Below are positions 30,840-35,236 of a DNA stretch of 35,236 nucleotides, piece by piece; the first letter of the stretch is position 1; every line of letters starts with the position of its first letter. Source of the stretch: Lachnospiraceae bacterium (GTDB lineage Bacteria > Bacillota > Clostridia > Lachnospirales > Lachnospiraceae); assembly GCA_017532145.1 (NCBI GenBank), contig JAFXJR010000022.1:1-35236 (forward strand). The letters are read 5' to 3'. Both the position numbers and the translations under genes were made by a program. The notes below the pieces were generated by a model. That model was not told where the DNA came from, searched no databases, and worked only from the letters and a program-made list of their open reading frames with translations.

Positions 30840-31687
30840 CGTAATGGTGAAAAGCTGAACAGCTACAAATAGAAAGGATGATAAATTCTGTGTTTTGTCA
30901 TACAAAGAGTACAGGGAGTAGAGGTGTGGATAGGAAAAGAAACTGTAGGAAAAATCGGAAGAAGATGGTTCATGAGAATACAGGATAAAGAAATAGTTCT
31001 ATTTTTGTATTTGAGAAACCACAGGATACCCTAAAGGAGAGCAGTTTATCCGGTGAAATCTTTTGCAGGATGAATAAAATATTGAGAAATAGTGGAAAGT
31101 CTACTTATCATCATAATTGCTAATAAATAGGGAGATGATTGGTATGCTTTGCACAATAATTGTAAGGATCCCTGTTTAGATATGGACAAAATATCAGTGG
31201 AGATGTATAATTCTTTTATCTGAAAGGTAGGAGATACTGGATTCTCAGAAGATGGGATGTCTGTGTTTCCAGATGCTTGGAAGATGGAAACTGGAGGCTT
31301 TGGGCGATATCACTTTGAGAGGTATCCCAAAGAAGCATCTGTTTTAATGACAGAGCCGGTTTCGTTTCTGCCGAGTGGGATCAAGTATGTATTTCGACCC
31401 TTCTCCCATTTATTTTCGGGTGAAGGTATTTTCGTGTGAAAATATTCGTAATTATGAATGATAATATTTGCATTATGCGGGAGAGAGTATGTGTGCAGAG
31501 AGGGAACAGGTAAATTGCAGAAGGAGGAGAGTCTGAAAGGAAAGAGGAGGGTCTGAAAGGAAGGAGGGCAAGGGAAAAGCCATTGTTAGTGGGAATAATG
31601 GAGATTTTTTTGTCAAAGTCTTGCCATTGACAAATTAGTAAAGGGATTATTATTGGAGAGAATATGATATAAAAAGGAGGAAGAAGT
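30840..31687. other. Gene-poor gap of 848 bases with possible coding relics
   Basis: No convincing gene. Short stop-bounded stretches look protein-like in composition. One, at about 31130-31223, reads GDDWYALHNNCKDPCLDMDK. Another, at about 31240-31439, contains SEDGMSVFPDAWKMETGG. They are in the plus direction, broken by stops and without ribosome sites, so they may be remains of one or more decayed genes. Around 31531-31570 a Gly-codon-rich purine stretch repeats TCTGAAAGGAA. A TTGACA at 31627-31632 could be the -35 of the next gene, but its -10 (TTATTG at 17 bases) is weak. Confidence 0.4.
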
Positions 31688-34600
31688 ATGCACAAACGTA
31701 CATTGCGGTTAAGGAAAATCATGGCAGCGGTTCTTTCTGCTCTGCTGATAGTGGAAGGCTCAGCGGCATGGGGATTTCCCGTACAGGCGGCAGAAGCAGA
31801 ACGTGGGGGAACGCAGCTTGAGAGCAGGGAGGCTGTTGTATCGCATTCAGACAGAAAGCTGTCAGAATACTTGCCTGGTGTCCCGTCGGTTGGCACCGCT
31901 GCCTCACCGGCTGAAACAATGATATGGGATGAGGACAGGGAGCAGGTAGACCTGCCCAGATATTACAGCTCCAGGGAGCAGGGTTTTACTCCTGCGGTTA
32001 GGGATCAGGGATACTACAATACCTGCTGGGCACATGCAGGAACAGCCTGTATGGAGATCGGGATGATAAAGCATGGTATGCACCAGAAATATGCCAATAG
32101 TGCAGAGGAGTTTGCTTTGTCTGTGGCTCATGGGCTGTATTATTCCTTCAGACCGGTGGCAGACGCTTTTGGATTTACATCAGAGGATGTGGAGGTAAAT
32201 AAGAATAAAGGGGTGCCTGTTGAGACCATGGTGAACAAGGGGAGTTCCCCCCTGTCCATAGGCAGCGCAGTCCTGACATGGCAGGGGCCGGTACTGGAGA
32301 AGGATTTCCCTACAGTGACAGGACTGTATTCGGCAGAAGAAGATGCACTGAATAACAGGGAAAAAGCGTATGAGAACAGTGTCGCCATTGTGACAGAGGT
32401 GATCGAATATGATGAAAAGGACTATGAGGAGATAAAGAAGGCGATCCTCAAGCATGGGGCAGTAAGCACGGGATACAAGTCGGGCGGAAGCAGTTATAGC
32501 AGCAGGTACTATTCCCATTATTCGCCTGCTTCCGGGGATACCAATCATGCGGTAACTGTGGTGGGATGGGATGATGATTTCCCCAAGGAAAACTTTGTGA
32601 CTGAGGCACCGGAGGACGGAGCATGGCTCATCCGGGACAGCCGGGGAGCAAACCAGAAGGACGAAGGATATTTCTGGCTGTCATATCATGATGCAACCAT
32701 GGATGGGGCAATCTCCTTCCAGGTGGAAGAAAAGGATAAGTATGACAATCTTTATACCTACTACATGCCCCAAACCGGAGGCAGTGCAAGCTGGGTGAAT
32801 GCATCCATGGGCGTTTCCTTGGATGTGGCCAATGTGTTTCCCATACAAAATGAGCGGGAATTGATCAAGGCAGTACAGTTCCCCCTGTTTTTAAATAACT
32901 ATGAGTACAGCATTATGCTGTATAAAAATCCGGAGGAGGGAAATCCGGCATCCGGTGAAGAACTCCTGGAGCAGCCGATCACCGGACGCAGGCGCATGAA
33001 GGGAAGGTTTAAGGTGGATCTGGAGCAGCCCGTCTGGGTAGAGGCAGATGATAAGATCGCAGTATGCGTCACCCTGCGTGCCATTCCGGTGGAGGGAGCG
33101 CCGAATCTGGGTGTATATGTGGAAACGGACAGCCAGCGGGTATCCCATAAGGGGGAAAGTTACTATCGCAAAAACAATGAAGCCTGGATCGACTGCAGCA
33201 CGGAAGGAAATGGCAGCTTCAGCATCAGTCTGCTGACGGATACAGGGGATCCCTCTGTGCCGGTGCATGAACATGACTGGGCGGAAACATGGTCTTACAA
33301 TGGGGATTACCACTGGCACGAATGTACCGGTGACGGTACCTGTGATGCCCATCTTTCTGAACCTTTTAGGGGATATGAAAAGCACCACGGGGGAACTGCC
33401 AATTGTCAGTCCAGGGCAAAGTGTGACGACTGTGGACAGGAATATGGAATCTTCTCATCCAGGAATCATATAGGGGATGGGGTGTGCAAGATTTGCGGTG
33501 AGACCATATCTCCCAAGGATCGGCAGAGGGTCAAGAACCTGAAATATGACTTTACCGGAATGAATGACGAAATCGTGTCCTCCACAGTAGGCGACAAGCC
33601 CAGACTGCTGATTTTCTTTAGTGCAGGCTGTGGATACAGCAAGCAGACGATGACAAATCTGGTGGCGGAGCAGTTGCAGGGTGTGGATATTGTGGCCGTG
33701 GATATTGGGCTGAACAGTAAGGAAGAGGTACAGGAATTTATGGATGACCGTGCAAGTTATCCAGGAACGAAAGATATTACGTTCTGTTACGAAGGGAGAG
33801 ACAATAACCTCATAAGATATGACTACTCCAATCACTACAAAAAAACATTTCCTGATGCGGCAGACTCTCCGCTTCCCATCATGTATTACATAGATACGAA
33901 TGACGATATCCGGTATATGACCACAGGAGTAAAGACGCTGGCAGATATCAAAGAGAATCTTGAAACCTATTGCTGGGATTCAGGCAATGAACCCCTCATC
34001 GGGCTGAATCTGGAAAATCCGCGCAGCGATACCTTTACCACGATAGACGGAGACACTGTCTCTGCAACGGCAGAGAACGGCAGGCCTAAGGTGATCGTGT
34101 TCGGTATCACAACGAATAATAATGTGGCGGACACATTGCGGAGCTTTTCCGAAGATTATCCGGAAGGAGCGGATATATACTTTGTGGATTTCTGGGGAAT
34201 GCCGCAGGAAGAGGTTCGCAGCTTCAAGGATGGGATTCCTGGTTCCGAGGACATCACTTACTGTTTTGGCGGTGATCTGGGTGCGGTAGTGGAATACATG
34301 GAGAAGGGAGGTATTTCCCTCAATGGATACCAGATGCCAATAACCGTCTATATTGATGGAAATAATAGATTGCAGTATGTGGATGACGGTAAAAGCACGA
34401 GTGAGAAAATGTGGAGTATTTTAAAAGACTGCTGCTCTTATGGGGAAGAGGAGGTGCCAGAAGTCGTTACTCTGAAGGGAGTGACCATCACCAAGGCTCC
34501 CAGTAAGACGGAGTATGAAGAGGGAGAGAGCTTTGATCCGGCAGGAATGGAAGTGACAGCAGCCTACTCTGATGATAGTACAAAGACAGTAGACAGTTAC

Positions 34601-35236
34601 ACGGTGGAACCTTCCGGCGCACTAGCGGCAGACGTCACAGAGGTAACTATCCGCTACACAGAAGGTGGTGTGGAAAAGACTACCACACAGAAGATTACAG
34701 TAAATAAAAAAGAAACACCAAAGCCGGAAGTCGTGCTGGAGGGTATCTCCATTACCAAGGCACCTACCAAGACAGAGTATCAAGAAGGAGAGAAGTTCGA
34801 TTCCGCAGGAATGGAAGTGACAGCAGCCTACTCTGATGATAGTACAAAGACAGTGGACAGTTACACGGTGGAACCTTCCGGTATACTGGCGGCAGACGTT
34901 ACAGAGGTAACTATCCGCTACACAGAAGGTGGTGTGGAAAAGACCACCACACAGAAGATTACGGTAAATAAAAAAGAAACACCAAAGCCGGAAGTCGTGC
35001 TGGAGGGTATCTCCATTACCAAGGCACCTACCAAGACAGAGTATCAGGAAGGAGAGAAGTTCGATTCCGCAGGAATGGAAGTGACAGCAGCCTACTCTGA
35101 TGATAGTACAAAGGCAGTAGACAGTTACACGGTGGAACCTTCCGGCGCACTGGCGGCAGACGTTACAGAGGTAACTATCCGCTACACAGAAGGTGGTGTG
35201 GAAAAGACCACCACACAGAAGATTACAGTAAACAAA
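31688..35236 (+). CDS. Secreted C1 cysteine protease with thioredoxin-fold and Ig-like repeats (3' partial)
   Basis: Open to the window edge, with 1183 residues visible and no stop. AAGGAGG lies about 7 bases before the ATG. A signal peptide ends near VQAAEA (33-37). Residues about 95-335 are a papain-like (C1) domain with Gln107, Cys113 (QGYYNTCWAHA) and His287 (TNHAVTVVGW). The NSWG motif is DSRG, so Asp317 stands where Asn is expected. A lectin-like domain follows (about 340-520), then a Cys/His-rich module (527-605: DYHWHEC, CDDCGQEYG, CKICGE). A thioredoxin-like domain at about 615-762 has C648GYS and a cis-Pro-like SPLPIMYY. A second at about 780-918 has no active Cys but QMPITVYI. From 929 on there are group-3 Ig-like (Big_3) repeats. 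GC is higher than upstream. Its role is surface proteolysis or binding; the substrate is unknown. Confidence 0.88.
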   Translation, partial: MHKRTLRLRKIMAAVLSALLIVEGSAAWGFPVQAAEAERGGTQLESREAVVSHSDRKLSEYLPGVPSVGTAASPAETMIWDEDREQVDLPRYYSSREQGFTPAVRDQGYYNTCWAHAGTACMEIGMIKHGMHQKYANSAEEFALSVAHGLYYSFRPVADAFGFTSEDVEVNKNKGVPVETMVNKGSSPLSIGSAVLTWQGPVLEKDFPTVTGLYSAEEDALNNREKAYENSVAIVTEVIEYDEKDYEEIKKAILKHGAVSTGYKSGGSSYSSRYYSHYSPASGDTNHAVTVVGWDDDFPKENFVTEAPEDGAWLIRDSRGANQKDEGYFWLSYHDATMDGAISFQVEEKDKYDNLYTYYMPQTGGSASWVNASMGVSLDVANVFPIQNERELIKAVQFPLFLNNYEYSIMLYKNPEEGNPASGEELLEQPITGRRRMKGRFKVDLEQPVWVEADDKIAVCVTLRAIPVEGAPNLGVYVETDSQRVSHKGESYYRKNNEAWIDCSTEGNGSFSISLLTDTGDPSVPVHEHDWAETWSYNGDYHWHECTGDGTCDAHLSEPFRGYEKHHGGTANCQSRAKCDDCGQEYGIFSSRNHIGDGVCKICGETISPKDRQRVKNLKYDFTGMNDEIVSSTVGDKPRLLIFFSAGCGYSKQTMTNLVAEQLQGVDIVAVDIGLNSKEEVQEFMDDRASYPGTKDITFCYEGRDNNLIRYDYSNHYKKTFPDAADSPLPIMYYIDTNDDIRYMTTGVKTLADIKENLETYCWDSGNEPLIGLNLENPRSDTFTTIDGDTVSATAENGRPKVIVFGITTNNNVADTLRSFSEDYPEGADIYFVDFWGMPQEEVRSFKDGIPGSEDITYCFGGDLGAVVEYMEKGGISLNGYQMPITVYIDGNNRLQYVDDGKSTSEKMWSILKDCCSYGEEEVPEVVTLKGVTITKAPSKTEYEEGESFDPAGMEVTAAYSDDSTKTVDSYTVEPSGALAADVTEVTIRYTEGGVEKTTTQKITVNKKETPKPEVVLEGISITKAPTKTEYQEGEKFDSAGMEVTAAYSDDSTKTVDSYTVEPSGILAADVTEVTIRYTEGGVEKTTTQKITVNKKETPKPEVVLEGISITKAPTKTEYQEGEKFDSAGMEVTAAYSDDSTKAVDSYTVEPSGALAADVTEVTIRYTEGGVEKTTTQKITVNK
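34472..35236 (+). repeat. Three tandem 264-base Ig-like-domain repeats, the last truncated by the window
   Basis: Units begin at 34472, 34736 and 35000, exactly 264 bases (88 codons) apart. The last lacks its final 27 bases at the window edge. Units 2 and 3 are nearly identical in DNA sequence; unit 1 differs mainly in its first 80 bases. Each encodes KTEY.EGE.FD.AGMEVTAAYSDDSTK and ends in a KKETPKPEVV linker. More copies may follow beyond 35236. Confidence 0.95.

Follow-up and report, generated by a model that had tools for sequence, protein, structure and literature searches.

Papain-family proteases carry an Asn within an Asn-Ser-Trp-Gly motif, and the thioredoxin fold features a cis-Pro before its fourth strand. 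In Cwp84 of Clostridioides difficile, a C1A protease with a lectin-like domain (PDB 4ci7 and 4d59), the active-site residues include Cys116, His262, and Gln110 according to its authors, Asn287 lies outside of the site, and the protein is anchored by cell-wall-binding repeats of Pfam 04122 (PMC4089489). Etrx1 and Etrx2 of Streptococcus pneumoniae are surface-exposed proteins of the thioredoxin family, described as stand-alone lipoproteins with a redox partner (PMC3914529). A literature search reaching few subscription journals returned no paper on the combination when all terms were required together and otherwise none that addresses it by title and opening of the abstract, and the available part of PMC10380794 does not mention "thioredoxin". 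Here, we analyze a window of 35,236 nucleotides (the whole stretch of DNA under study), which named relatives suggest comes from a member of the Lachnospiraceae and which ends within a gene whose encoded parts are known and whose combination of parts is rare.

Results

The open reading frame (31688..35236, forward strand, as are all of its parts below) has 1183 codons and is open at the contig end. A putative signal-peptide-like N-terminus, recognized by eye on the translation (approximately residues 1–36; 31688..31795), precedes Peptidase_C1 (residues 90–334; 31955..32689) and Lectin_like (residues 377–513; 32816..33226) domains, which follow the order of Cwp84-like proteases and exceed their Pfam cut-offs (42.6 vs. 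20.7 and 55.1 vs. 27 bits). Next come a Cys/His-rich module (approximately residues 521–605; 33248..33502), which matches no Pfam family above cut-off, and two thioredoxin-fold domains, Trx1 (residues 613–769; 33524..33994; cis-Pro730) and Trx2 (residues 773–924; 34004..34459; cis-Pro884). The frame then enters tandem repeats of 264 bases (34485..35236; 2.8 copies, 94% matches) that encode Big_3 and are cut by the contig end; three stretches of the protein are above the Pfam cut-off for Big_3, the top one at residues 938–1004. Thioredoxin families score below the Pfam cut-off on the window protein itself, and both domains are assigned to the ResA/TlpA type of thioredoxin fold by structure prediction, with a low-confidence model of the pair, and by sequence profile. 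The layout given in the original prediction, a C1 protease with a lectin-like domain, a Cys/His module, and two thioredoxin folds, is therefore recovered by Pfam, profile, and predicted folds. So are its redox-site assignments: Trx1 has a CxxS motif (CGYS; Cys648 at 33629) and Trx2 has NNNV without a redox cysteine, such that the CxxC of thiol-disulfide oxidoreductases is absent from both. G+C content is 49.5% across the gene (31500–35236), 31–37% in the preceding 2.5 kb, and 41.6% in the whole window; the high value could reflect acquisition or a bias of surface proteins.

The protease head is closest to Cwp84, which is the top match among solved structures by sequence (E 5.6e-24) as well as the top Foldseek match (4d59; E 2.0e-24) of a model of residues 85–931 that was built on 30 sequences, two in its Trx part, and has a mean pLDDT of 76.9. 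In an alignment of relatives, Gln107, Cys113 (32024), and His287 (32546) of the window C1 domain are all conserved. The Asn of the Asn-Ser-Trp-Gly motif is missing, with Asp317 (32636) in its place. Among the 102 ungapped rows, which comprise domain segments of 79 relative loci, four loci of the same genome, and the window, position 317 is Asn in 98, Asp in 2, and Gly in 2, and position 319, Arg in the window, is Trp in 89 and Arg in 3. These residues are unusual for the family, and the window C1 domain is also the most divergent of the three proteins that share its layout (42% identity to its paralog and 43% to Roseburia protein L044, vs. 54% between the latter two), as would be expected of a decayed paralog with an inactive protease that functions solely as a surface adhesin or decoy. 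We consider such decay unlikely. Asp is the usual third residue in transglutaminase-type papain folds, the frame stays open across all 1183 codons, and Gln107, Cys113, and His287 are kept. Moreover, Cwp84 itself carries Ser at the column of Asp317, so Asp at this position does not exclude membership in a Cwp84-like subfamily, and because Asn287 is outside the active site of Cwp84 (PMC4089489), we refrain from classing the window protease as inactive.

A scan of genome contigs with the Trx pair of the window protein alone matched 40 stretches and no relative. A second scan, with an alignment of two proteins, identified 243 relatives in named genomes, and the best 79 loci were carried forward. 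Four phmmer candidates (L032–L035) were treated as chance matches; by eye, they resemble 4-alpha-glucanotransferases. A Trx profile found the module in 1 of the 79 kept loci (best 79 of 243 relatives), a fraction that may be low because some loci are cut by contig ends (e.g., the contig carrying L045 stops after the protease). The locus with the module, L044, comes from a MAG of Roseburia sp. (isolate RGIG7456) and repeats the layout; its Trx1 reads CGSC, and its Trx2 is devoid of redox cysteines. The paralog in the genome of the window (L021, contig C19) is 38% identical over residues 85–925 and lacks cysteines at both Trx redox sites. Across the window's own genome and the best 79 of 243 relatives, the layout is thus known in three proteins, which makes the joining of a C1 protease to tandem Trx domains rare. 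A further locus, L075 (5509–9789), encodes a C1-lectin protease; by eye, its C-terminal half resembles a serine protease of the subtilisin type, which would put two proteases in a single chain.

Sequences at other contig ends bear on how the protein may be anchored. Contig C71 opens with repeats 90% identical to those of the window, after which come three SLH domains and a stop, and repeats of the paralog are likewise found at the start of contig C66. The longest shared words are 113 bases between C117 (the contig of the window) and C71 and 137 bases between C19 and C66, compared with 17 when the pairs are crossed. Because the contig ends do not overlap exactly in either pair, these tails are likely but not proven. 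Contig C71 suggests an SLH anchor for the window protein; L044 has a closed reading frame with no SLH match in Pfam, so SLH anchoring is not general. Two further C1-lectin proteases of the genome (on C83 and on C66 near position 59,800) were not picked up by the Trx profile and carry Big_2 and SLH instead of a Trx pair, which makes the pair an exchangeable part of the stalk.

An alignment spanning the Cys/His module and both Trx domains matched at least 28 of 397 family genomes, with up to four candidates scored per genome; among the matches listed, the window's own genome is absent, and none in reading frames of more than 900 residues extends beyond position 142 of the 420-position model. The Cys/His module recurs without the Trx pair in large reading frames (780–2627 residues) of other family genomes. 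The Trx module is present in at least 17 of 397 family genomes at E ≤1e-12 and at least 41 at 1e-5, in 10 of 16 genus genomes at 1e-6, and in at least one of 391 class genomes at 1e-12, the window's own being the only one among the matches listed. The family and class scans scored up to nine candidates per genome. The Trx pair matched nothing in plasmid or phage collections. Among 13 weaker loci that were inspected (L140–L152), 12 contain CxxC and resemble typical redoxins, and one, L142 (G086), adds another surface-type protein, with CTYT.

The Trx module is a mobile surface module that is fused also to transglutaminase-like and CAP domains. Of the 33 module proteins, 25 were searched with Pfam, and the other eight (L027, L037, L038, L040, L041, L042, L160, and L183) were judged by eye to have no enzyme partner. 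Transglut_core is the partner in eight proteins (L022, L026, L028, L043, L156, L193, L194, and L195), three of which (L022, L043, and L195) also have SLH, and CAP is the partner in L153, L155, and L159 as well as in L193. The remaining scanned proteins have SLH, fn3, Ig-like, or no known domains. Protein L193 (3–5654, reverse strand) combines Transglut_core, a Trx module with CLNC, and CAP in one chain.

Redox motifs vary across the module. Among 41 domains from 32 proteins (33 were examined and L195 was dropped because its match is split in two), the cis-Pro is present in all 41, CxxC in 16, and CxxS/T in 16; an N-terminal Cys is retained in 32 and absent from nine, one of which, the third domain of L030, is an uncertain case since it aligned only from profile position 34. 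The survey was seeded by the window query, so the sample is not unbiased. CxxC occurs in 3 of 13 domains linked to C1 or transglutaminase and in 13 of 28 others, and we claim no link between its loss and the enzyme partner.

In a midpoint-rooted tree of the 41 domains, which has several long branches, the six C1-linked domains fall in one clade (96/96) together with transglutaminase-linked L193. Within it, the Trx1s group (89/77) apart from the Trx2s (94/81), and L193 joins the Trx2s, though weakly supported there (91/66). Most simply, the Trx pair would have formed once, before the three proteins diverged. The ancestor of Trx1 probably had CxxC, which is kept in L044 and has a counterpart in the CLNC of L193, and its cysteines would have been lost later. 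In each of the three known proteins, both cysteines are gone from Trx2.

Discussion

We infer that the gene encodes a secreted, probably wall-anchored Cwp84-like protease with a stalk whose Trx pair mainly binds and presents, a reading to which we give about equal weight for and against. The head of C1 and lectin-like domains would be catalytic, and the stalk would comprise the Cys/His module, the two ResA/TlpA-type folds, and the Big_3 repeats. The Trx pair would descend from a redox-active surface module and act as a binding, presenting, and spacing element that holds a substrate or partner near the protease. Cys648 would at most form mixed disulfides, as an optional thiol chemistry, rather than serve in catalytic disulfide reduction. 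A binding role is favored because the redox site was lost while the fold was retained, a pattern visible across the module in the contrast between an invariant cis-Pro (41/41) and a patchy CxxC (16/41).

Alternatively, as the original prediction proposed, Cys648 could capture substrates, or Cys113 of the protease, in mixed disulfides and thereby couple redox state to proteolysis. This is improbable in our estimation, even though 32 of the 41 module domains keep an N-terminal Cys and 16 are CxxS/T, Trx1 of L044 has CGSC, and a DsbD_TM protein is encoded in the genome (56.6 bits vs. a Pfam cut-off of 27.1). The latter (G000:C110:6144-6797; L198 1471–2880) has a C-terminal WCPPC stretch that is TlpA-like by eye, and electrons could thus in principle reach surface thiols. 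The same-genome paralog, however, keeps the layout without any redox-site cysteine, so the architecture does not need a redox site, which speaks against thiol chemistry of the CxxS domain as the reason for the architecture. Some relatives may nevertheless use the site, as the CGSC of L044 suggests.

A broader and quite doubtful proposal is that disulfide handling is built into surface proteases of this gut-bacterial lineage. A CxxC or monothiol Trx1 would open or capture disulfide-bonded substrates, a redox-dead Trx2 would bind them, much as in the a-b pair of protein disulfide isomerase, and a DsbD-type membrane protein would supply electrons, so as to feed a Cwp84-like protease. More generally, the module is attached to both C1 and transglutaminase-like enzymes, two papain-fold types with a catalytic thiol, and might there attend to their substrates or thiols.

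The window protein adds a rare stalk type to C1-lectin surface proteases. It also shows that a mobile surface module of thioredoxin fold can vary or lose its redox cysteines while the fold and cis-Pro stay. With CxxC, CxxS, or no cysteine at the equivalent site, the three natural proteins allow direct tests of what the redox site does.

Relative to known systems, the window protein shares with Cwp84 the C1 and lectin-like head but has Asp where Cwp84 has Ser at the usual Asn column, and its Cys/His module, two Trx domains, and Big_3 repeats stand where Cwp84 has Pfam 04122 repeats. Its Trx domains have the predicted fold, profile, and cis-Pro of ResA/TlpA-type thiol-disulfide oxidoreductases but differ in that Trx1 is CxxS, Trx2 is without a redox cysteine, and both are in tandem inside a protease. 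Structures of Etrx2 (2yp6 and 4hqz) are among their fold matches; yet, whereas Etrx1 and Etrx2 stand alone, the window domains are part of a protease stalk. The transglutaminase-like surface proteins (L022, L043, L026, and others) have the Trx module in common by profile, but each has a single Trx domain and an enzyme other than C1, whereas the window protein pairs a C1 protease with two.
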